A DNA stretch of 64,000 nucleotides. It comes from Liolophura sinensis. Taxonomy: Eukaryota; Mollusca; Polyplacophora; Chitonida; Chitonidae. Position 1 is the first letter of the stretch, and each line of letters starts with the position of its first letter. The translations under genes were made by a program, and so were the position numbers. The notes below the pieces were generated by a model. It searched no databases and was not told the DNA's origin. It saw only the letters and a list, made by a program, of their open reading frames with translations. Below, piece by piece: positions 4,924 through 51,732 of this stretch. The DNA is taken from contig NC_088306.1 of the NCBI RefSeq assembly GCF_032854445.1, positions 20,121,764 to 20,185,763 of the forward strand, given 5' to 3'.

Positions 4924-7900
4924 TTAGGATCTGTAGCAGCGAGTGAGAAAATTGGCAACAGCCTGAAAAACTTTGTTGTGATTTCTCACCGGTTTTAAAA
5001 CGGTGTCTTCTGACGGGTTCCTAACACCCACACGAGTTAATTCTGCGTAAAATACGCGCCTGGCGTCAATATGACGTCTACAACGAAAAAGAACATGAGT
5101 AACAGTATCTTTTACAAAACATTCCTCACAATGACCCGTGTCATGGAGACTGAATTTATGCAAATAGCTGTTTGTTTTAATGTGACCAGACAAGAGTCTA
5201 AATACGAGTATTTCGTCACAGCGACAGTTGAGAGAGAGATTGTAGCTTACAGAGATTTGAGGGTTGTGAGAATAAAAGAATCTTCCTGTAACAGAGTTAT
5301 CCCATTCATTTTGCCATAATGGTATAACTTTTGGTTTGACATAACTAATAGCTTCTTGTATAGATAACGGGATGGTGTGGGATATATTGGGTAGATCAAG
5401 GGCCTTTTTGGCCCGTTTGTCGGCCAACTCATTTCCGTCAACACCAATGTGGGCCAGCACCCATTCAAACGCCCCAGATACACCTTGATAGCCCAATATA
5501 GTACAGATATACAGTATTTCATACACAAGCGCTGCCGACTTTTCCAAATAAAGTTACCAAGTGCCTGTAAAGAACTTAAGGAGTCTGTGAAAATAACAGC
5601 CCTAATCGGTCTTAACTCGAGTAGATAGTTAAGAGCACTCAAGATTGCGGTAAGCTCTGCCGTGAACACGGAAACATAATCTGACAAGCGGAAAGATTTT
5701 TCATACCTCATTTCTGGAATACACACTGATGCGCCCACTTTGTTAGTGTCGGGGCATTTGGAAGCGTCGGTAAGTACTTGTAAGTACTCGTTCCAGTTTG
5801 ATTTAATATGGTCCTTGACACATAACAACGATACATTACTGTTATCCGTCTTTTTGGCTTTAGAATGTAATTCCACAGAGACAAATGGGTTCGATAACTT
5901 CCAGGAAGGAAAATGAGGAACACAACCAGGCTGAATAGAAATATCCCTGGCCTGAAAGAAGTCAGACATTTTGTTCGACCGTAAATTAAATGGCAAGGCT
6001 TTCTTACCGTCTTTACTATATAACTGATCATAATATAAGGGTTTAAGTACAGACGTTGCAGAATTATTAATGGTAGACTTTAGCCTGAAAGTAAACTTTA
6101 GGACACGCAACCGACGACGTAAGTGTAACGGCCACTCATTACAGAAGACTTGTAATACGCTGAGAGGAGTGGAGCGTAAGCCTCCAGTACAAATACGTAG
6201 TACGGCGCACTGGATAGAGTCAAGTTTAGCTTTGAGGCTGGCACACGCTGAATCATAGGCTTCGCAGCCGTTGTCAAGCCTAGACCTAATTAAGGACCGG
6301 TAGAGCAGCAAAAGACATTGCCTGTCGGCTCCCCAGGTTCGCCCGGAAACACATCTCATCAAGTTAAAAACTTTCTTGCATTTAGTAATCGTATAATCTA
6401 TGTGATTAGACCAGGTAAGGCGCCTATCAAATATCACGTCAAGATACCGGAAAGACGAGGATATTTCCACGGGAGAAGTATTAAGAGAAACAGATACCTG
6501 CTTGATAGCTTTTCGTGTAAAGATGACAGCTTCGGTTTTAACTGATGAAAACTTAAAGCCCCATGTTAAGCTCAATTTCATGATGTCATCCAAGCCCTGT
6601 TGAATGTACTTGGTGCAGAGTTTAAGACTCCTGGAACCATTCCATACAGCTTTGTCATCCGCAAATAATGTGCATGTCAGTTTTGGTGACAGTGTGTCCG
6701 GTAGGTCATTTATGGCAATATTAAAAAGAGTAGGAAATAGAACACTACCCTGGGGCACACCATTCTCGACAGGTACTGGTCGAGAGTAGTTTCGACCGAC
6801 TCTTACTTTAATAAAAAGGCCCGAAAGGAAGTTTTTCACCCACCCCAGCATTTTTCCGCCAATTCCCATGCTTCTCATTTTCATAAGGACACCAGTTTGC
6901 CACACCATGTCATAAGCTTTTTCTATGTCTAAAAACACAGCAAACAAATATTCCTTTTTACACAGGGCGTTTCTAATAGATTCTAAAGTGACGATATGGT
7001 CGGTTGTAGAACGTTTGTTTCTAAAACCGCTTTGAACTGGACTGAAAATATTGTGTTTGTTTAAAAACCACACCAAACGAGCATTAATCATCCTTTCCAT
7101 GACTTTACACAAAGTGGCAGTAAGCGCGATGGGCCTGTACGATGAAGGGGCAGTTAGGTCCTTGCCGGGTTTAGGCACCGGTATGACGATAGCACTTTTC
7201 CACTTAAATAGGAGTTTCATTTGGGTCCATACCGTATTGTATAACATTAATAACACCGTAAGGCACTGTTCAGGCAAGTTACACAGCATAGAGTAAGTAA
7301 CATCAGGTAGATGACAAAAATCCTCTCCTGTTAGAGAAAAATCATCATTGATGGGCATTTCATCAAATGCAATATTTTCAAAAGAATGAGCTTTCTCCAT
7401 TTCTTCCTTATGAGAGATAAATTCAGGGCAATAATTCCTCGAGCTGGAGACATAGGAAAAGCTGTCAGCTGAAATGTTACATCTATCTGAATTAGTGACA
7501 TATTCAGAATCGTTATGAACAATGCTGGAAATAGCTTCAGATTTCCCCTTGCCATTAATGGACTTAATTTGAGCCCAAACGTTTTTGATTGGTGTATTCT
7601 CGGATAAATTACTACAAAATTGCCGCCAGTGATCTTTCTGAGCTCGTTTGATTGTTCGTTGAGCTACAGCCTTCGCCCTCTTGTACAATATAATATCATC
7701 ATCGTGTACGACGTGCTCGATTCTTGGGACGTTTACGTTCCATAACGGCAGCAGAGATTCGGTATTCCACCACGGAACTGGCATTTTATATTTCATATCA
7801 CCAGAAGATTTAGGTATTGTCTTGGTGGCTGCAGCGTTAATGGCGTCCACAATGTTGTCAGAAAATACATCCACATTGTCATCGAAAATCTCACAATTAA

Positions 7901-8657
7901 AGGATTTCCTACATTCCTTTTGGTAAAGCCCCCAATTTGCTCTTTTAATGCTCCATCTGGGAGGGTGACCCACTGAGTTTACATAAGGATTGAAATCCCA
8001 GGATACATGGACGGGTAGGTGATCACTCCCACACGGTGAGATATTATTCACGGACCAATCAAAAGACAGGCTTAGGTCAGGGGAACACAAAGTAAGATCA
8101 AGATGTGAGAAATTACCGGAGTGGGGATCAACTCGAGTGCCTGAACCATCGTTAAGAATACATACACCATATTGATCAATAAATTCTTCAAGTACCCGCC
8201 CATTTTGGTTAACAGTTGCACTACCCCACAACGGACTGTATGCATTGAAATCCCCGCATAAAATGTAGGAGTTATTCACAGATGACATAAGGGAGTTAAA
8301 GTCGGAACGATTCAGACGGTTCGACGGGTTGTAAACGTTCACAACACTAACGGATGGACCGTTAGTTCTAGCTATATTGAAACACTTGGCTTCTATGCTG
8401 GTAAACGAAGGTAATCTAATCTCGGAAAAGGAAAGTCCATGTTTTAAGAACATAGCCAGGCCGCCGCCACCTCTCGTCTCCCTATCTAATCTGTTAATAA
8501 AATATCCAGGATATGTATAATCAAGATTCCGCTATAAAAAGGTTTCTTGTAAGCAGACAACATGCGGTTCAGGATTTACATTAGAGAGATAGAACTTAAA
8601 CTCCTGGCCGTGGGTACCGATACCCCGAATATTCTGATGAAGCAAATTAAACTCCAT
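4924..8657 (-). pseudogene. LINE ORF2: endonuclease, reverse transcriptase, RNase H (one stop, one frameshift)
   Basis: The start ATG is at 8657. The first motif is HQNIRG, then a QET motif; a TAG at 8534-8532 (codon 42) interrupts. The exonuclease-endonuclease-phosphatase fold continues with CGDFNAYSPLWGS and SDHLPV. The reverse transcriptase shows YRPIALT, QSGFR, FLDIEKAYD, NGVPQGSVLFP and the catalytic FADD. RNase H follows with LTDASK, FTAELTAI and IFTDSLSSLQAL. A one-base shift near 5545 moves the end into another frame, which carries AHIGVDGNELADKRAK (the RNase H His and last Asp) and a terminal CEEC-H-C finger. All catalytic residues seen are intact, so decay is recent. In life it would nick target DNA and copy element RNA into the nick. 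Confidence 0.92.
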
Positions 8658-9975
8658 TATTGCCGAAAAAAAGCGAAGCAGTGAAGCAATAAAGGTTAGA
8701 AACATAAACATTACGAAACCTCAGCAGAAACCAGACTAGAGAGTACGGACGGGTAAAGTTGACATGTTCAGGCCCGAGCCGTGACTGGGCGATATGGAAG
8801 ACTTCAGCTATAAACTGATCAGCCTCTCCAAGCTCAAAAGCTTTGAGCATTACTTCAGTGAACACAGCTATGATATTAGTTGCCGTAGACAAAGACAAAT
8901 CTTTGATTTGATTACATGAATCCGACATGGTTTGGGTAAATGCATATTTCATTATGGGCTTAACTTGTGAGGTGGGTTTCACAGGATGAACGTCTGGTCG
9001 AGGTTGTGTACTGTTATACGTAGGTTGTGTACTATTATTCGTACGGACGTAGGATATCCGTACTATTACACATAGATGGTGAATATTCAGAGCCTTCAAG
9101 TAAAGCCTTCTCTGCAGGACTTTCAGGATAAGGTCGACTGTTCTCTTCACGAACATTCTTAAGAGCTTCGGCAAACAAAACTTTCTGCGTTACCTTAATA
9201 TACTTGGCTTTACTAACCTGCTTGCGATATGGACAGCCCAAGTAGGCAGATGAATGGCCGAGGGAGCCGCAATTAACGCACTTAGGTCTATCCAGATTTC
9301 TACACTGCTCAAACTCATGTTCTCCTGCACAACGAGGACAACGCGGCTTTCCCCTGCATGAAGACGATATAAGGCCGTAGCCCTGTAGCAGCGTAATAAT
9401 GGAGGAACGTACGGTTTGACTTCAAACATTTCATAACCTAAACAAATTTTAGTAGGAATGTCCTCTAGATCGAAATGCAACAGCATGCATTTTGTTTTCA
9501 TTTTCTCCCTCCCCTTATATAGCCTTTCCACTTTATAACATTTGTTTTTCTTCAAAGCAGCCAGTACATCTTCTTCGGTTAGCTCATCTCCTACCCCATA
9601 AATAACACCCCGTGCTTGGTTAGCAGATAACTGTTGTCTACATTGCACATCACGTCCCATAACAGAGGTTAATGCCAAAGCCTTTTGAACTTGGACTGGT
9701 CCCGTACATATAATTAATAGCTCCTTGGAACCCTGCCTTTTCACCTGTTTGATGTTACCGATAGCTGTTTTTATGCTGTTCCACGCTGTAATGGGCAGGC
9801 CACCCATAGAGCATATAACCACGCTGTGATTGCCTGAATTTGACCTGGTGTTTACTTGTCTAGGTTCCTTCCCCTCAGAGGACGCCCGATCCAAGGATAA
9901 ATCGCGCACGCGTTTATTACTGGAACGGACCTCCGAGAATTCCACAGAATCCTCACCCCCTTCGGTGTCGTCCAT
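8647..9975 (-). pseudogene. LINE ORF1, gag-like zinc-knuckle protein (frameshifted)
   Basis: It starts with ATG at 9975 (MDDTEGGEDSVEF) and runs in one frame to about 9385. A lost base near 9380-9384 shifts the frame. The next frame shows a possible first knuckle (begins CYR, then CYG), followed by CPRCAGEHEFEQC and CVNCGSLGHSSAYLGC, the CCHC pattern of retroelement gag proteins. A second shift near 9045-9070 leads to the C-terminal frame, which ends at 8647 overlapping the ORF2 start. The total length is about 443 codons. The N-terminal half probably holds an RNA-binding fold, but this was not tested. Its role would be to coat element RNA in the ribonucleoprotein particle. Confidence 0.85.
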
Positions 9976-10240
9976 GGTCAGTTAATCTAAATATAATATC
10001 TAAGGTGTATAGGACAAGTGTGTTATTACGTAAGACTGTTCAAGCACAAGTGGGTGTTGCCCGGGAGCTGCTCCGGGCCGGGACAAGACAAAAGGCGCTC
10101 GGGTTAGTGATGCAGAGTATTGGCAAAAATTGGCCGTGCGCAAATGTACAAATATATATTGCAGTCATAGAGGTATACACAAACAATATATTAGGCCTAT
10201 ATACACTTATCTATGAAGCAATCTCAGTGGCAGAGTAAAA

Positions 10241-11847: not shown

Positions 11848-14800
11848 ATGCCAGGCCTGGAAAAGCTTCTGCGGGGCATCCTGCGCTACCATCAGGGCAC
11901 TAAACAGGAAATGGTTCATCAGCTGAACAGTTTTAAAGCCAATCCTAAGGTGAGGGGTACTACCTATATAAGGATCATGGTTTATGTGTAGGTAAATGAA
12001 CGATTGAAATTTGGCTGCCAGCGTTTAATAATACCCCAACCACTGGAATAAAGTCAATCTTCAGGTGAAATTTACAATATATAATATTTACAGTTTTGTT
12101 TCCTCTTCTATAATATTCAGCAAATCAGTTCTTTCGTGACAAGTATACAAATACCACAAGATAGTAGGGATGTAAGGATATGCTGCAGTATTGGTGTATC
12201 TGCTCTAGAATTGTGGCCAATCAAGCTATCCGTACTGATGAACTTCCATGTAAACAAAAAACACGACGTCAAACGAAGATGTCGAAACATTTCCTGACAG
12301 ACCTTAAACTTTGAAATTCCCACTGGGAAAATCAGCGGTTTGGAAATATGTTGCACTCTTGACAGGACTCTACTTCACAACTATCGGTCGAGTGTGTTAT
12401 ATCGCAATCAAGTACAAACGTAGTACAACAAACATGCCCACACACTTAAAGCAGCACCAACCCCATATCACGGAAGATACACACACAGAGTAAAATCAAA
12501 AGCTGTAGAGAAATTCCATAGCTTAAATAATTACTAAAGTTATATGTTTACACTAATACTCAAGTTTACATGGGTTTGTGTTTTATTACTGTTTGTTTTA
12601 TCGACCTAACATGTGTTGGTCGTAGCTTAACACTGCTTAGTAGTTGGAACACCCTTTTATCTTCTGTACTCTCTTGACATGTTCAGACCAAATCATTGGT
12701 GGGAATGGGAATAAACCCCAAGGAGTTTATTGTATCCCATTATATGTAAAAATTATGGTGTATTGGTATATATAGATTCAAAAGTACATGTAATTAATGC
12801 AGATAAATTTTCAGACGATGAAGTGTAATTCTTCCACCTTTATGCATGTTTGCAAAATGTGTATTTAAGCATATTGTGAAGGCAAGGTTAAGGAATTAGG
12901 GTGTGTCATTTATATATATAAATGAAGAGATTATAGTACCCAATGTATATGTGGTTGAGGGATCATCCCAACAATGTGGTAGCTGTAAGTTCAAGTCCAG
13001 CTCATGCTGACTTCTTCTCTGGCCATATGTGGGAAGGTCTGTCAGCCACCAGGGGATGGTAGTGGGTCTCCGCCCCATTTCCTCCCACCATAATGCTGGC
13101 CGCCATCATCCAAGTGAAATATTCTTGAGTACGGCGTAAAAACACCAATCAAATAAATCAATCAATCAAACCAATGTCAGAGGGTTCTTTTTGTCTCAAA
13201 ATGGTATTTTGAGGTTTGTTTTTAGGGTAGGATGTATCACCTCCAAAGTAATATTCTATGACATGTATCTGCCTCTGAAAACGCTCTTTTGGGCAAATTT
13301 TTTGTGGTCATTTACAGTAGTCCATCCTTTTCTCCCCAACAGGCTGTGGCCATGTACTTCTCCTGCATGGACTGTCGCTTGCAGCCGTCGCTGATAACGG
13401 ACACACGGCCTGGCGACATGTTTGTTGTGCGTAACCCTGGTAACCTGATCCCACACGCGCGTCACTGTAATCTGCAGGAGTCCGTTACTGGAGAACCAGC
13501 GGCACTGGAACTGACATGTGTCAAGCTAGAGATCAGGGATGTCATTGTGTGTGGCCACTCAGACTGTAAGGTAAGTGACGAGAAATTACCCATGAGTAAA
13601 ACTGTAGAGGTGACTGGAATGAAATGTGCATGTATGTAAAACTTTCAGAAGTGTTGTTTACTATACAGCTTTGGAGTGGGTGATCTAATGAGCAAGGCAT
13701 CTGAATAAGTGTGACTTTCAGAAATTGTGTTCACCATTTGTGGTCAGATGAGTGTTTTAAAAATGTGTAAATTACCAGGATATAGTGTAATGTGTAAAGC
13801 ATCTTATTAAAGTGTGAGTTTCAGAAGTGTTTACCAAAAGCACTATAATAGAACGAATATGTAGAGTGATTGATTGATTGATTTGATTTGTGTTTTACAC
13901 CATACTCAAGAATATTTCACTTCGTATAATAGCTGCCAGTATTATGGTGTAATAAAACTGTGCAGAGACCCGGGGGAAACCCATAACCATCCGCAGGTTG
14001 TTGGCAGACCTTCCCATGTATGACCAGAGAGGCAGCCATCATGGGAGTTTACATTGGTGAGACGCTCCAGACCGCACAGTTACAAAGGTCTTCACACCTG
14101 CATGAAATGTAACTTTCAAAAAAGTGTTGTTTACCAGAAGGACGTTCTAAATTTATATGTATAGAATACCTGATTCATGATTAAAGTGTAACTTTAAATA
14201 GGTGTTGAATACATCTTTGGCTTTGATAACATTCAAGTTTAATTGAGGTAGAGAGTCACAACGATCTGTTGTCTATTTTGGTAGATCTGATTGGTCGAAA
14301 TAAAACAAACTAAGAGTAACGTTATCAATTCGGTGTTGAAAATATGTTAATTATTTTAATTTACTGTATAAATTCCTTGTTAGTATTAAGTTACATATTT
14401 ACCCTTTAAATAGATAAATAATTCCAATTTTTTAATACCGTGAATTACAGAACCCCAAAGGGAACTCAAATTAAGAGGTTATAGTTCACCTTTAACCTTT
14501 AAAACTTTAAAGACTTGAAGACTTTAAAACTGGTGCTTCTTACTGCCTGGCTTGGCACTCAGCAATGACAGGTTAGAGTCAGGAAACAGGACTGGTTGTC
14601 CTGGTGTCAGTATAATGTGACTGGATGGGGTGTCAGGTCTGGTGTCTTCAGCATGGACTCACATGGAATGTGACGGCAGAACTTTGGCAGCATGAACTCG
14701 TCCTGCCACAGTAAGACACAGTATATGTACATACGCCTAAGGACTCCTTAGTTATCATATCACTGAAAGATGTTTAACTACGACATTAAAGCCCAAGCAT

Positions 14801-28870: not shown

Positions 28871-31800
28871 TCAGGTAAACCCAAACACCTCAAGAACCTT
28901 GCAGGCAAAGTCCTGTGTTGTACACAGGGGTGGGTTGTTGAAGGTGTCGCACCTCTCTGTCCTGCAGCGCAGCAGTCCGTCAGTTAGGTAGATCGCTGTG
29001 CCATTGCTGCAGAGAATAACAAATATCTCCATTACTTCACTGTTTTACACCAAATACTACCTTTTACAAAACAGAATCCTTGTATAAACTAATGCAGAAA
29101 TCTGTAGTACAACATAAACAATGATGTATTTCTCCACAGCCAAGATTATTCCAAGACCTGCTCCTCGACATCAAAATAAAAACCTTCCTCCACCCCAAAC
29201 AGACACAAGATTTTATACTTACCCTTCTCCTACAATCAGAGTGTGATTGTCTCCTGCCAGGAACATGTTCCCTGTAGGAGGGACCTCACTGCCACTTCTC
29301 CCCACCCACACACACACCTTCCTTCTCCCACCCCCAGACACACACCTTCCTCCACCCCAAACAGAGACAAGATTCTACACTTACCCTCCTCCTACAATCA
29401 GAGTGTGATTGTCTCCTGCCAGGAACATGTTCCCTGTAGGAGGGACCTCACTGCCTCTTCTCCCCACCCACACACACACCTTCCTTCTCCCACCCCCAGA
29501 CACACAACTCCCTCCACCCCAAACAGAGACAAGATTCTACACTTACCCTCCTCCTACAATCAGAGTGTGATTGTCTCCTGCCAGGAACATGTTCCCTGTA
29601 GGAGGGACCTCACCACCACTTCTCCCCACCCACTCATACACCTTTCTCCTTGGAAACAGAGTGAAGATAAATGTCTCCCCACTGCCAAAGTAACACAAGT
29701 TCTTCTGCTCTCCCGTTTGTATCCGCTCTCGCCAGTCAGTGGAACAAAATGCACCAAAAATCTGAATATGAAATTGGGTTAAAAATAAATCAACATTTTA
29801 AGTTTTTCTCTACGGGAAAAGGAAAGGTTATGATTACTCCAATTCTTCTACTTTTTCACACATGAAAGAGCAACTACCAGTGCAATTATATGCACAGTTT
29901 TTATCTCATTTTGGAGACAAACCACACTGGTTGGCCACTTTCAGGGCTTCTCAAAAAGAATAATTTTACCAGTCTACACCCAATATTGCCCTCAGAATAT
30001 GCTTGAACGAACACCTCACTGGTGGTGAAACACCAATCAATGAGGACTATTTTTTCTGCTACCCTTGTCACATAATTTCTTGAACATAAATATCATGATA
30101 AATTTATGGAAATATTACATCTGGTAAAAAAAAGTTGATGAACAGGTAATTTACCTCATTCCTGGTTGTCTTAATGACAAAGAGCGTCGGTTCTTGGTGG
30201 TCAATCTTACTATACAGAGTCCGGAGACTGATGCCTTGTTCTTCTGAGGTGTAGAGAAGCTGTGGCTGACAGACTGTGTACCTGGCAGGTAACCAGCCCC
30301 AGATTGTCATCAGCTGAAATACAGGTGACAACAGGTGAGAACTAGATTGATTGATTGTCTTTGTGTTGGTTTGTCTGTATGAGGTGCAGAGAAACTGTTG
30401 CTGACAGACTGTGCAACCAGCAGGTAACCAGCCCCAGATTGTCATCAGCTGAAATACAGGTGATATCAGGTGAGAATTAGATTGATTGATTGATTGATTG
30501 TCTTTGTGATGGTGTGTCTTTATGAGGTGTAGAGAAGCTGTTGCTGACAGACTGTGAAACCAGCAGGTAACCAGCCCCAGACTCTCATCAGCTGAAATAT
30601 GCACGATATTACTCGAGAGCCATAGGTAAATGATTGACTATGTGAATGAACTGTTGTTTCTCTGTGATAAGTATCTGGCAGAAATTCAGCCCCAGATAGT
30701 GAACTGGTTTATCTTTTGAAACATGTTAAACAGTTTATTCATTTCTCAGATTGTTTCCATCCATACCAAAATATATTTCATACTGATACATTACTATCTG
30801 TCATAAAAGGTATTTACCTGGTAAAGGAAACTGTGGTGCCTAGAGTAAACCACAAGCCTTTGGCAAGTTTCTGGTGAACTTTCCCACGTGTGATGTACAG
30901 ACATGCATACCATGCTGGTGGAAACAAGAGGTCTTCAACAAATGTTGCTGACAGCATGTTTACCCTACCTCATGTAATAACCACTCTTCCATGACCCACG
31001 ACGTGTAGCACTAACCTCAAACGAATATTTGACTGACATTAATGATATACATGTAGATGACAACATGATTAAGATGTTAGGTTTTAATATATGTGAAAGT
31101 ATAATTAATACATGTACTTACATATACATACTGTATATATCTATATCTGAGAGGAAAATGTTAATATCATTACTTGTAAGCAGAGGTCATGAGCCAGTAA
31201 AACTGCAAGCTAAGCAAAATGCCATGACTGGTACATGTCCATGGGAAGTACAGGAGATTTTGTATAAATTCACAAGATTTAAGGCACAGAGAGAGAAAAA
31301 GCATGCAGAGGCAGCAGAATTCACTCAGCTGAGTTATATATAAGCATCAACCCAACAAACACAAAAAAAAATTCAAAAAATAACTTTGAGCGCAGAACCT
31401 CAAATAGGAGTTACGATATACTTTTATTTTGAAGAGTCCTTCATTTATTTATTCATTTATTGTTGTTGTTGAATGCCATAAAACATTTGATTTAAAAGAA
31501 ATGTTGTAAAACCAGGTCAAGTTCACAATAAGCAGCAAATTATAACTGTAATAAACAACATTTTCATGCAACTCTGTGCGGATACATGCAATTTTCGAGC
31601 AGGTGTTACATACAGGACAACAGGCATGGAACTCACATCTTGGTGGCTAAGGGTGTTACAGGTCACCTCATCCACATAGAGGTAGCTGAGTGACCTTGAC
31701 CTTATTGGGTGGACAGTATGATCAGACTCCTCAGCTGTGGGAGCATCCAGCTTCTCAACGGAATGTGCAGTTGTTCAAGTAGACAATGTATTAGTTGGCA

Positions 31801-34800: not shown

Positions 34801-37743
34801 ATAAGGCTATAGGGATTTTCTTACTGAAGACTTTGAGAATTTAACAAATATGGGATGTTCCCACTAAATTAACCGCAACTAAATTAATGCATAATTAACT
34901 TCAGGAGACACATTTTTGTGCACTACAGATTTGTAGTCTCCATTATAATCATGATTCTTATATGATCTTCAGGCTGATCATCATTTAAGTTAAAAATCTA
35001 TGCAGTTCATCTTTGAGACGTCAGAAGCTGTGATGTAATAACTTGACTTGACGTATCCAATCAGGATACCTCAAATCTACACAGGTCAACAATATCTAAT
35101 GGTAGTGGTACAAACTTTGATATTTGAGCCTTTGAATGAATTGACAGTGTACCTAAAACCTACACAGATCAACATTATCTAATGGTAGTGGTACAAACTT
35201 TGATATTTGAGCCATTGAAATAATTGACAGTGTACCTAAAACCTACAGAGATCAACAATATCTAATGGCAGTGTTACAAACTTTGATATTTGAGCCATGA
35301 AATCAATTGACCTACCAAATCCTGGCTGACAGCATCGCCCTTGACGCTGGACTTCCTCAGTGAGAGAGGCGCCGGAATGCTTTGTGATCTGTGAGTTTTA
35401 ACTGGCCCTGAGAATGAGTTGCGTGACATGCTGCGTGTGATGCTGGACGCACGCGTCATCCGCACCTTGTGGCTTTTCTCGCACATTTCATGGCGCATCT
35501 GGAGCTTGCGAACTTCCCTCTTACCCAGACCTCGGATGCCGAAGGCTGTCTACAACATCAGCAATTCAGCGGTCTAAGCTAAACATTTCTGTAAGGTACC
35601 AGTGTAAAAGTTACGGTAATTTATCAACCTTTTCGCATCTTTGCAAGGTGTTTGTTTAACAATATTCTGAGAGATTTAGTTGGTGTAGACTGATAACATT
35701 ATGCTCTTTGTGAAGCTCTGAAATCAGCCAACCCAACCAATATAGTTTTGTCTCCAAAATCAAATGATAAATGTGCATAAATTGCACTGAAAACTGAAAC
35801 TTTCATATGTGAAAAGGTTGAGGAACTAGGGTAGACTTATTAGCAAGAGTATTTCATATTTTCATATTTATATATGTAGGAAGATAGTGTATTAACAGGT
35901 ACAAATATACAAATTGCTGGCAAGAGATAGAAAGGTGAATGACATTTGGTATTACTTTGTATATTAATCTTGTTTCACATATTATTTTGTTCATCCTAAA
36001 ACAAAGCACATCATATTCTACTGACACCACAACCCTAACATGTCACCATGGTGAAAATCTCACCAAGATGGAAAAAACTTTGCACAACCCGAGAAAAGAA
36101 AAATCTCCTTGTTATGGCCCCAAGGGGATTAGCATGCCAGCACGGTGCAATGAACCAGGAGCTTCCCATCAATGTGATCACTGTGAGTTCAAGTCCAGCT
36201 GGCTTCCTCTCCAGCCATACGTGGAAAGGTCTACCAGCAACCTGCGGATGGTCGTGAGTTTCCCCCAGGCTCTGCCCGCGGTTTCCTCCCACTATAATGC
36301 TGGTTGTCATCTTATAAGCGAAATATTCTTGAGCGTAGCATAAAATACCAATTAAATTAATCAAATGAACACATATGGTGTTTGAATCTTAAATTCTGAC
36401 TTTTGTCTTTCAGGTACAGCCAACCTTTAAGATCTTCTCCATACTGTAAGGAATGTCTGTACAGAAATGTTTAATCTTTGATGAAACATTCATCCCTTGC
36501 ATCAAGCTGCTGTTTCCACGAGATTTAGCTGCAAAATTAAAGAACAGATGTTCAAAACAGCGGTAAAACATAAAGGGTATGTCTGGAAGTTTCAGAAGCT
36601 TTCTACTCCATATAAAGCACAAGATCACCATGGTTTATATTGATAAAACATTGTCAAAACCTTACAAAACACCTTAAATGCACCCAATTCAAATTTTGAA
36701 CAATATAAGACCTACTTTGAAAAATAATGTTTCTTCAAAGAATTCACACTGTGAAGGCAGCAAAACTTTAAAACATTAACATTTATAGCAGAGGCTGAGC
36801 AATGAGTAAATTAATTTTTTTCAAATTAATGAAAAAAGTGATCAAATTTTCTTCCATTCAAAACTTCGGACAATGACTAAATCACCATTAACAGCAGCAG
36901 CAGCAGTTCCAGTTTTTCTGAATGTTTTCATTACAGTATCCTTATGCTCTTATATGGACATTGAGATGATAGGATAGTGGGGATACAAAAGTTGGGGAAA
37001 AGGAGGTATAAATACAATCTATAAAGACATCATCATAACTAATACTTTCAAACTACAGACAGAACTTGATTAACATATCGTGCTACATGTAGTATCCCAA
37101 TGTTAGCAAACAAGCTATTTGCAACACATGAGATTGCTTGTTGCAAATAAAATACTCCAAGATTTTTTTGTTCCTTGCCTTAGTCAAAAAAGTGCACTTC
37201 AAAATATTGTTCTCTTCACTGCAGTCTCATCCACACGTAAAAGTGACCGGAGGTTTGGTTTAACACTTACTTGTGTGTTTGTGGTAGAGAATGAGAATAG
37301 CCAGGGCAACTCTGTACAACACCTTGACACCTTCAAACAGGTAACAATCTACCACCTGTACCTACAATACAGAAACATGATCATTTATAGTCTCTGTGCA
37401 TAATACCACAGTAAAACCCCAAAACATACATCTGGGTTTAAATTCATTAGTTTCAGATTCATGTATTATAAATCTTATACAACACCTTGACATACATGTA
37501 TAAAGCTATTAAGACAAACCTTGCCTGTACTTCTTTTAAATACAAGAAAAAGAAATAAATTAGTCCATACTTTCACGTACATGTACATGACAATTAAATC
37601 ATCTCTAATACATATACTAAAAGCACAATGTCCTTCATCTGAATACATAATGTAGATTTTGATATTTTTCTGTTAATTGAATGGACCAGTTTACATGCAC
37701 TTCATATGGTAATCATAATCAAGAATCCATTCTCTGGGTATGC

Positions 37744-37775
<32 letters not shown>

Positions 37776-40700
37776 CTTCTTTTCGGCCGTACGTGAGAAG
37801 GTCTGACAGCAACCTGCGGATGGTCGTGGGTTTCCACCGGTTTCCTCCCACCATAATAAATAAATAAATAAATAAATATATATACTTGTATGTACTTGTT
37901 GTTACATTTGCAGATGCCCAAGTTCAATTGTTAGACAGGATTAAACTCAGGGTAGTCTGTAAATGGAAGGTCTTACCAAATAGGGAAAAGGTAGATCTTT
38001 GAAAATCCACCAGAACCAATTCCTGAATACAGGTTCCACATTGCCATCTGTGTCCTTTGAAATGTTGCTGTAGGCGGATTTCTAAAAATGTGGAACAAGG
38101 CTGTACTGTTTGTGTGTTTGTATATCAAACTTATGTATCCTTAAATTTACATCAGAAAAAGTTAGAAAGAACAGTTTTTAGAACCTCTGCCCACATCACA
38201 GGCATACCCTGGGCAGGCAAGTGGCACACCACAGGCATACCATGGGAAGGCGAGTTGCACAACACAGGTATACCACAGGCAGGCAAGTGGCACATCACAC
38301 ACAAACCATGGGCTGGCAAATGGCACACCACAGGCATGCCATGGGAAGGCAAGTGGCAAACCACAGGCATACCATGGGCAGGCAAGTGGCACACCACAGG
38401 CAAACCATGGGCAGGTGAGTTGCACAACACAGGCAAACCATGGACAGGCAAGTGGCACTCCACAGACATACCATGGACAGGCAAGTGGCACACCACAGAC
38501 ATACCCTGGGCAGGCAAGTGGCACACCACAGGCATACCATGGACAGGCAAGTGGCACACCACAAACAAACCATGGGCAGGCGAGTTGCACAACACAGGCA
38601 TACCACAGGCAGGCAAGTGGCACATCACACGCAAACCATGGGCTGGCGAGTGGCACACCACACGCAAACCATGGGCAGGCGACACCACACACCACAGGCA
38701 AACCATGGGCAGATAAGTGGCATGCCACAGACATACCATGGACAGGTGAGTGGCACATCACACGCAAACCATGGGCTGGCAAATGGCACACCACAGGCAT
38801 GCCATGGGAAGGCAAGTGGCACACCACAGGCAAACCATGGGCAGGCAAGTGGCACATCACAGGCAAACCATGGGCAGGCGAGTTGCACAACACAGGGAAA
38901 CCATGGACAGACAAGTGGCACCCCACAGACATACCATGGACAGGCAAGTGGCACACCACAGACATACCCTGGGCAGGCAAGTGGCACACCACAGGCATAC
39001 CATGGACAGGCAAGTGGCACACCACAAACAAACCATAAGCTGGTGAGATGCACAACACAGGCATACCACAGGCAGGCAAGTGGCACATCACATGCAAACC
39101 ATGGGCTGGCGAGTGGCACACCACACACAAACCATGGGCAGGCGAGTGGCACACCACAGGCATACCATGGGCAGGCAAGTGGCACACCACAGGCAAACCA
39201 TGGGCAGATAAGTGGCATGCCACAGACATACCATGGACAGGCAAGTGGCATACCGCAGGCAAACCATGGACAGGCAAGTGCTACACCACAGACATACCAT
39301 AGACAAGCGAGTGGCACACTACAGGCAAACCATGGGCAGACAAGTGTCACACCACAGACACATGATGGACAGGCAAGTGGCACACCACAGGCATACCATG
39401 GACAGACAGGTGGCACACCACAGGTAAACCATGGACAGGCAATAGTGTCACACTAATGGCATACTACAGTTTTAAATGAGATTTGCTTACTGCGTGATGC
39501 TTGGCGAGATCTCTCATGACCAAGTGTGTGGCATCAACAGCGACTTTCGTCTGAGCTAGGTACAAGCTCTCCCGGCTCCGCACCATTCCGTACAGACATT
39601 CAAAGCACTGCTCAGGCTCCATGAAGTGTAAGAAGAGCGCCGCCAGTGGGAAGAGGCTGGGGCAGAATGTGATGTCAGGGTTTAGGTTTTCCAGCACAAT
39701 CAGGACAGTGTGAACCTGGTGCACACCCGTCGGGGTGAGGAAATACTGGGGCATGTGGGCGGGGTCAACGAAGGACGGCACCGGTAACTCTTTACGCACC
39801 TCTGACATATTTAACAAAGACAACCAGTTTATAAGGCAAGTACATAATACATTCAGCTGAATTAAACAGTGATGTGGACACAGTGACAAGTAACATATGT
39901 ACAACCAAAAACAATTCAACCTTAAGACTGGGAGAAGACATTTATACATATACTAAATTTGAGTTTGCATGTAAAATATTCAAATGGTCTCCATACTTGT
40001 CTTTATGAATGAAAACAGCATAAAATTCACTTATACTCAATGTTACAAATAATTATAAATTTCAGTTTCAAAAAGAATTTCTTATTTCATCATAGTATCA
40101 CAGTCTTGCCAGAAGATAATTTTGAACAACAATTTTGAACAAGTCAAAAAAAAATCTGAATAACAACCCATCAAGTTATTTTGTATACATGTAGTCTTAC
40201 CTCCTTTAAATATTTCATCCACCATATCCTGGAAAATACTAGAGCCCCAACTGAAAACTAATTTACAGGTCTGCAGCCAGAGCTTACTTCTCACTGGATG
40301 GCCGACAGACAAAATATTTGATCGCAGCCAATGTTTCAAGTGTTTTTTATCGTTAGTTTTTATCAAAACATTAAACTGTTCCTCAGGCTTTTTTGAGTGT
40401 TCTTTTTCTGTGGGGAAATCAGGCATATGGAACAAAGCCTCAGGTTTTACAAGCATTGGCATTCTTACTTCCTTCTTAGCACTCTCTGTTTTCTTTGTTG
40501 GTTGGGATTGTTCAATTTTCCCATTTTGCAGATCTGACTCTTGGCTACTCCCTTCTCCTCTTACGCAACTATTCTCATTAAAGTTGCCTTCTTCACTATT
40601 GCTTTTGGAAACTTCAGAATCCTTTGATACTTTCTCAGATTTCAGACTTGCACATTCTTTCTTAGCAGACTTCTCCTCTTTAATATTTTCAGAATTTCCA

Positions 40701-50135: not shown

Positions 50136-50424
50136 ATGGTTTGTAAAGCTCACCTTTACATCTAAACATTTGACTGCATCTACTTGAACTAATGAACAAT
50201 AATCTAAAAATGTATTAAGGAATGTATTTTCAGATACAGTTTTTATTGACACGTAATTCATTCTTGTTTTCTTTCACGTATTTTAAAGAAAAATAAATAC
50301 GTATATGTGCATATACCTTTAGCTATTATTTATTCATATTTATTCATTTACATAAACCATGTTTGCAAATTTTCGTTTTGTTCACAGAGAGGATAAGCAC
50401 ATGCTTGTTCAGAATTAGTCGACC

Positions 50425-51732
50425 ATGACACACGGGTGTGGCAGTGTCTCGAGTGCCGGGGCGTCATTCTCCGGATTCAGCGCTGGGACGTCAACGTCAT
50501 TCAACATTGCCGCGGCAACCAGCGTGCGACGCTCAGGCTCGTCCAGATCCCAGGCCAACACGGACGACGACTGCACAGAATGCTGTGCATGCACGTGCGT
50601 ACTTTGTTTCACGGGGTTGGGATATTTACTTTGCATCAAAAAGATGACGAAAACCAGCCGAATTCAGCTGGCCTGGTTTTGGATGATCGTCATGTCGGTC
50701 AGCCTGTCCTTGATCGTGGGATTGGGCATATACGGAGAGAAATCCTTCCCGGCTGCCTTCACAGATATGCGCATGCTCACGCAAGGTTTTTCCACGTTCA
50801 TGTGTAATTCAGTCAAACTGACGTCATCGCACCCCATGAGCGTCTATCTGATGCCAGAAGTACCTCAAATCGACACGTCCATTCGGGAAACTTACAATAT
50901 GAGTAGTAGTATGTATCTCTCAGGAGAATCGTATGAATACTGGGGGTTTTACCTTCTGCAAGGATCAAAGGTTACGGTGTACAGTTGCTCTAGTCGAACA
51001 GTGACTCTTTTGATCATTAAAAGCTTTGACAACCTGCAGACGTGGAAAAGGGACGATTCCTGTTCGGACTGTGTGATGAGCAGACAAGTTCTCAGCCTCA
51101 CCGGCAACTGCGTGTTCTTTGACTTCGATTACACTCGATACGACTTGGACGTTTTCGACTCGGACGACTACTACTTTGTCTATGTCACCAACGCCCTTTC
51201 TTCCCATGTGTCCGCAAGGTTGTACGTCAACCGAACCCTTTACAACGTCACTTCCGCCAAAGATCGCTGCAACTTTGGCTATACCTGTTTCTTTGAGCTG
51301 TCTTACTTGTCACCGGAAGTTGTCGTGTATCACATCGGTACAGGCGTAATAACAACGACCGTCGACATGAAGACACACTGCTTACCACAAGTCGGTCTCT
51401 ACATCGCCTTCTTTCTCCTACCGGAGTTAGCCATAGCCATTTTGTTGACGATCCTGATCAGAAAAAAATGTACAGATCCAGTTGACGTCACCATCAGGAG
51501 AGAACGTCGGAACGTGCAGCTGAGGAACGAAGGCCCACGAACACCGCTCTTGTCGCGCCGGGCTCCAGGATCTGGGGTCGTTTCCGGGCAGCCTCGGTCA
51601 AGGGCATCGCCTCTTTTGAACCCCTTAAGTGAGCAAACAGAACCCCCTCCAAAATACGAGGATGTTGAGCGACAGGGGCTAGGCCAGGGTCCACCTAGCT
51701 ACGAGGAATCCATTAAAGTTCATAATAAATAA
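50425..51732 (+). CDS. Two-pass membrane protein with PPxY motifs
   Basis: A 435-codon frame in one exon. An acceptor ('cgttttgttcacag') ends at 50387, so an intron probably lies in the 5' UTR. The start is the first ATG after it. A Ser/Gly-rich N-terminus leads to a Cys cluster (residues 50-70: DCTECCACTC). TM1 spans about 80-103 (LAWFWMIVMSVSLSLIVGLG), then an exterior or lumenal domain of about 215 residues with N-glycosylation sites and several Cys. TM2 spans about 322-345 (VGLYIAFFLLPELAIAILL). The basic cytoplasmic tail carries PPKY (408-411) and PPSY (423-426), which are WW-domain ligands of NEDD4-family ubiquitin ligases. The ectodomain (GESYEYWGFYLLQGSKV) faintly recalls the N-terminal part of APD-type membrane proteins; this is a memory match, not tested. 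Function unknown. Confidence 0.85.
   Translation: MTHGCGSVSSAGASFSGFSAGTSTSFNIAAATSVRRSGSSRSQANTDDDCTECCACTCVLCFTGLGYLLCIKKMTKTSRIQLAWFWMIVMSVSLSLIVGLGIYGEKSFPAAFTDMRMLTQGFSTFMCNSVKLTSSHPMSVYLMPEVPQIDTSIRETYNMSSSMYLSGESYEYWGFYLLQGSKVTVYSCSSRTVTLLIIKSFDNLQTWKRDDSCSDCVMSRQVLSLTGNCVFFDFDYTRYDLDVFDSDDYYFVYVTNALSSHVSARLYVNRTLYNVTSAKDRCNFGYTCFFELSYLSPEVVVYHIGTGVITTTVDMKTHCLPQVGLYIAFFLLPELAIAILLTILIRKKCTDPVDVTIRRERRNVQLRNEGPRTPLLSRRAPGSGVVSGQPRSRASPLLNPLSEQTEPPPKYEDVERQGLGQGPPSYEESIKVHNK

Follow-up and report, generated by a model that had tools for sequence, protein, structure and literature searches.

Triplicated acceptor end of exon 8 in a TBC1D24-like gene of Liolophura sinensis: a probable minisatellite-like partial-exon duplication

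Tandem duplications that copy splice signals have been described as a route to intron gain: the Rogers model, ATP2A1 and the potato RdRp are the instances recounted in PMC4974935. A second route to change at an exon edge is the alternative 3' splice site exon, which, according to PMC1876488, can grow out of a constitutive exon. How the splicing machinery chooses between duplicated sites has been approached with constructs: in the classical work, as told in PMC9225289, the upstream one of two competing 3' sites was chosen, while β-globin constructs with duplicated 3' sites, in the account given by PMC5389562, were spliced very inefficiently and exclusively to the distal site. For human events, PMC9225289 presents a preference for upstream 3' sites that weakens significantly, though with no stated reversal, when both introns are longer than 250 nt; for exons lying between long introns it presents a preference for the upstream 5' site.

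At the locus reported here a duplication of this type is found in exon 8 of a TBC1D24-like gene of the polyplacophoran Liolophura sinensis, on the minus strand of a 64,000-nt window (the whole stretch of DNA that was analysed: contig NC_088306.1, positions 20,121,764 to 20,185,763). As in the intron-gain cases of PMC4974935, an in-gene duplication has copied a 3' splice site, its polypyrimidine tract and coding bases. It departs from those cases, as they are presented there, in the matter of the donor: in intron gain the duplicate supplies one, whereas a scan for the patterns GTRAG, GTAA and GTATG, outside which weaker donors fall, gave no match between 30313 and 30591 (the matches within 30155-30720 are two, at 30612 and 30210). 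With no scanned donor between the copies, no new intron is expected, and at most an alternative acceptor; a separate exon in each copy was rejected on the same scan. Tandem duplicated (mutually exclusive) exons have their own acceptor and donor in each copy, whereas the exon 8 copies end inside exon coding sequence with no scanned donor after it.

The alternative 3' splice site exons of PMC1876488 are matched in two respects, candidate competing acceptors and an in-frame extension; such an open extension, usual in these exons and not required of them, is found at 30448 and lacking at 30591. The difference from the cases in that paper, whose main text has no word beginning with 'duplication', is that the extra acceptor at exon 8 comes from a duplication. 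The Reed and Maniatis 1986 constructs, as relayed by PMC9225289 and PMC5389562, share the layout in which an upstream acceptor copy precedes a shortened exon (of 14, 55 or 205 nt in the constructs and of 69 to 85 nt at exon 8); unlike them, the exon 8 array is natural, consists of three to four copies and has diverged. With the minisatellite-like arrays of the window it has in common head-to-tail units of tens to more than 100 bp, and its copies show the high identity that defines such arrays; it differs in that its unit, like that of the array at exon 9 of the same gene, takes in a splice site and coding bases. Events of this kind are already known, and the exon 8 locus is another instance of them. 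In a literature search, with most subscription papers outside its reach, no paper among those listed dealt with this locus or with duplicated splice sites at an exon of TBC1D24.

The introns and proteins of the window are those of an animal. The gene itself is, judged by its sequence matches, a Skywalker/TBC1D24 relative, as the initial annotation had proposed. The peptide of the joined exons 8-10 aligns over residues 1-158 of 160 with the TLDc domain of Drosophila Skywalker (6r82; E 6.7e-50), with NCOA7 as the second-best solved structure (E 4.5e-19), a ranking that comes from a search against solved structures. Pfam matches to RabGAP-TBC and TLD point the same way, and a TBC domain lies upstream in the same gene as four collinear pieces matching 5hjn (Table 1). 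Both features by which membership of the group was judged, a TLDc domain closest to that of Skywalker and a TBC domain upstream of it, are thus present. Our gene model has ten coding exons, in agreement with the number 8 previously given to the affected exon; exons 5, 6 and 7 were placed by splice signals, open frames and expected sequence, with no database match, Pfam included, on any of them. The 6r82 alignment starts at the first codon of exon 8 and runs on into exon 9, and the open frame containing exon 8 matches Pfam TLD (6.6e-10). Introns 7, 8 and 9 measure 1323, 393 and about 540 nt, respectively.

Table 1. Features of the TBC1D24-like gene and its splice-site arrays, in window coordinates
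Feature	Position	Strand	Remarks
TBC piece 1 (5hjn)	~40555-40262	-	E 5.2 singly (weak)
TBC piece 2 (5hjn)	~39796-39482	-	E 4.6e-16; Pfam RabGAP-TBC 4.6e-9
TBC piece 3 (5hjn)	~38096-37971	-	E 0.34 singly (weak)
TBC piece 4 (5hjn)	~37361-37269	-	E 4.2e-4
Exon 7 (probable)	31637..31737	-	Donor CAAGAT/GTGAGT, consistent with phase 0; acceptor edge an estimate
Copy 4, probable decayed relic of the exon 8 unit	~30592-30706	-	Edges approximate
Copy 3 with linker	30449..30591	-	Out-of-frame acceptor 30591; 143 nt; TAA after 23 codons
Copy 2 with linker	30314..30448	-	In-frame acceptor with predicted exon start at 30448; open over its 135 nt
Copy 1	30245..30321	-	Putative ancestral acceptor (exon begins at 30313) and 69 coding nt; lower edge from TRF
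Exon 8	30155..30313	-	53 codons, phase 0 at both ends; acceptor TTTCAG/CTG, donor GAG/GTAAAT
Exon 9 (TLDc)	29547..29761	-	Putative ancestral donor GT at 29546; 6r82 alignment; Pfam TLD 8.3e-8
Tandem triplication, donor end of exon 9	29182-29644	-	TRF period 162, 2.9 copies, 96% matches

The triplication of the acceptor end of exon 8, the central claim of the initial annotation, was recovered both by an ungapped repeat search and by TRF. The former gives three tandem copies (30210-30340, 30345-30475 and 30488-30618) at spacings of 135 and 143; compared without gaps against the second, the first shows 75% and the third 87% identity; the latter gives 30245-30599, with a period of 143, 2.6 copies and 88% matches. 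Following the three AGs, exon starts fall at 30313, 30448 and 30591, exactly where they had been placed before. The duplicated coding part is 69 nt long by the TRF edge (30245) and 85 nt by the blastn edge (30229, copy 1 against copy 3), a range that makes the earlier figure of about 75 coding bases per copy a fair one. Outside the array, the exon 8 unit has one blastn match in the window, of 31 nt (13862-13892).

A fourth, older and decayed copy is probable at about 30592-30706. When 30592-30712 is aligned end-to-end with a composite unit (the coding part of copy 1 plus a linker), the score is 95, which was reached by one of 2000 dinucleotide shuffles and none of 1304 control stretches; the core of this copy (30671-30700) is 30 nt long and 80% alike. 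Local alignments to 30592-30900 gave weaker support: the copy 1 coding part scores 36, reached by none of 1000 shuffles (shuffle maximum 35), and the scores of units 2 and 3 were matched by 36 and 92 of 1000 shuffles, respectively. Genome assemblies can mis-handle tandem repeats, and the whole array could on this account be a false duplication or the product of mis-joined haplotypes. False copies would, however, be nearly identical, whereas copies 1-3 show 6 to 9 differences per pair over 72 positions and are accompanied by the more decayed copy 4 upstream; an artefact of assembly is therefore hardly credible.

The acceptor at 30448 lies 135 nt upstream of the one at 30313, a distance divisible by three, and the 45 codons that it would add are open and join the normal frame. 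On these points our frame check agrees with what had been claimed, and the 6r82 alignment likewise places the insert of 45 residues where the TLDc region starts. The acceptor at 30591, predicted earlier to be out of frame, is so indeed: the further 143 nt are not divisible by three, and the frame entered there additionally reaches its TAA after 23 codons. The acceptors 30313 and 30448 have 37 of their last 40 intron bases in common, so that even strong use of 30448 would, as far as sequence goes, be compatible with its signal; pyrimidines at -5 to -20 number 11 of 16 in copy 1, 10 of 16 in copy 2 and 9 of 16 in copy 3. One may picture an acceptor at 30448 that is regularly used, so that the gene would make a second isoform, longer by 45 residues ahead of the TLDc domain, and would be on the way to an alternative 3' splice site exon. 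Its nearly identical splice signal and the open, in-frame extension speak for this, as does the choice of the upstream 3' site in the classical work related in PMC9225289; moreover, the insert would fall at the very edge of the domain in the 6r82 alignment, where an addition may be tolerated. The very inefficient and exclusively distal splicing of the β-globin constructs described in PMC5389562 speaks against it. Given the lengths of introns 7 to 9, of which the two that flank exon 8 both exceed 250 nt, the rule as set out in PMC9225289 would favour the inner, working donor at exon 9 and is ambiguous at exon 8.

Regular use of 30448 is also opposed by the state of the copies themselves. Over 72 positions, copies 1 and 2 share 63, copies 1 and 3 share 64, and copies 2 and 3 share 66. 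Nine of the 69 coding positions vary: at four of these copies 2 and 3 stand together against copy 1, two are changed in copy 3 only, two in copy 2 only, and at the last all three copies differ. The Arg of codon 11 and the Pro of codon 17 of 6r82 are present in copy 1, with glycine and glutamine in their places in copies 2 and 3; from this shared loss it follows that an upstream copy first drifted and only afterwards underwent its second duplication. Residues identical to 6r82 number 14 of 23 in copy 1, 10 of 23 in copy 2 and 11 of 23 in copy 3. The private changes, two in copy 2 and two in copy 3, are all non-synonymous. Between copies 1 and 2 six codons have changed, one synonymously and five non-synonymously; synonymous changes make up one of six changed codons between copies 1 and 3 and none of five between copies 2 and 3, as against 48 of 207 (23%) for random single changes in copy 1. 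Small as these counts are, they give no sign of coding constraint in the upstream copies.

The in-frame spacing, furthermore, hangs on a run of CAAT units. The linkers differ by 8 nt, that is two such units (three in the copy 2 linker and five in that of copy 3), and the gain or loss of a single unit in the inner linker would put the acceptor at 30448 out of frame; a linker of equal make-up is open in 36% of shuffles. Frame and openness are thus weak evidence of function, and with the loss of conserved residues in copies 2 and 3 we consider it rather unlikely that 30448 is regularly used. Still more speculative is a scheme in which 30448 is used and differences in CAAT length between individuals (three units in frame, two or four frameshifted) turn the extended isoform on or off, the locus forming with the triplicated exon 9 donor a natural double test of splice-site proximity, one at each exon edge; we give this very little credence.

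The region is rich in tandem repeats: TRF finds 24 merged arrays (units of at least 10 bp, with period 2 and period 4 rows excluded) that make up 13.7% of the window, and five arrays longer than 200 nt fill 24% of the gene. Two of the 18 internal exon ends, some of which are estimated edges, lie inside such an array, and three of 18 lie within 10 nt of one. Circular shifts give a mean of 4.3 exon ends in arrays, with 96.5% of shifts reaching two, and independent placement a mean of 3.9, with 92% reaching two; an enrichment of arrays at exon ends was accordingly rejected. The overlaps of arrays and exon ends in this gene need no special cause. Other arrays of the gene include a three-copy 83-bp array (35067-35311), which starts 5 nt away from the end of exon 6 (last base 35316) and so right at its donor, and a 38-copy 33-bp array in intron 2 (38192-39442), where several frames of either strand are open over long distances.

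The array at exon 9, which the initial annotation leaves unmentioned, is the mirror image of that at exon 8, with the donor triplicated instead of the acceptor. Its donors are at 29546 (the working one), 29384 and 29222. On the exon side, copies 2 and 3 share 103 of 105 bases, and for copy 1 against either of them the figure is 97 of 105; the sequences around donors 1 and 2 are identical throughout the 81 nt compared (from 60 nt before to 20 nt after the first intron base). Reading on past the first donor to either outer one gives a TAA at once. The acceptor at 30591, with its early TAA, and the two outer exon 9 donors might therefore act as poison sites that feed nonsense-mediated decay and lower expression, which would be compatible with the other readings, and the identity of donors 1 and 2 adds to the case. 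Array and exon-end overlaps are, however, this frequent by chance alone, and the upstream 5' site, preferred between long introns in the account of PMC9225289, is here the working donor; such a role appears improbable.

Searches for relatives of the two exons elsewhere yielded little. Among viral contigs there were three pattern matches to exon 8, none confirmed as a relative. Among genome contigs there were 104 pattern matches to exon 9, of which one was supported by tblastn, in a Nitrospirota record (a 43-residue match at 40%, with E 4e-6 within the candidate set); as this match lies opposite a 259-codon open frame, presumably that of a peroxiredoxin-like protein, it was taken as chance. Elsewhere in the window, the minus strand carries a non-LTR retrotransposon (5250-9981), with endonuclease and reverse transcriptase domains in a 1094-codon frame (5250-8531) and a further 263-codon frame without a Pfam match (9193-9981); the plus strand has a single 437-codon open frame (50419-51729) with APD1-4 N-terminal and middle domains by Pfam.

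Taken together, the exon 8 array is probably a minisatellite-like partial-exon duplication in which the ancestral acceptor at 30313 makes the main protein. The process would be a tandem duplication, in at least two rounds, of a stretch spanning the intron 7/exon 8 boundary, of the same kind as that behind the many tandem arrays of the region. One round would have left the working exon edge in copy 1 and a further copy upstream of it; this upstream copy would then have drifted and been re-duplicated with its linker to give copies 2 and 3, copy 4 probably stemming from an older round. The acceptor at 30313 is most likely the main one in use, as the conserved coding sequence survives in copy 1 only, and a conserved domain that looks essential relies on it: the spliceosome would join exon 7 mainly to this site and remove the other copies as intron. 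Leaky use of 30448 is possible, since a near-identical 3' splice signal is retained, and would lengthen the protein by 45 residues ahead of the TLDc domain; splicing to 30591 would truncate the product, and the RNA would probably be degraded. The duplication appears to be a commonplace mishap of repeat-rich DNA, not a built-in switch. Of the natural experiment in exon birth that the initial annotation saw here, the duplicated acceptors and the in-frame position of 30448 stand; competition between acceptors in actual use and the birth of an exon are put in doubt by upstream copies without coding constraint, by a linker whose openness recurs in over a third of shuffles and by array overlaps no more frequent than chance.

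Should the extra sites be in use, the neighbouring exons 8 and 9 would amount to a natural version of the constructs with duplicated splice sites made in the 1980s, and the exon 8 copies have diverged enough for the chosen site to be recognised in ordinary RNA reads. Should the extra sites go unused, the gene would be a clear example of repeat turnover placing near-perfect decoy splice sites beside working ones.
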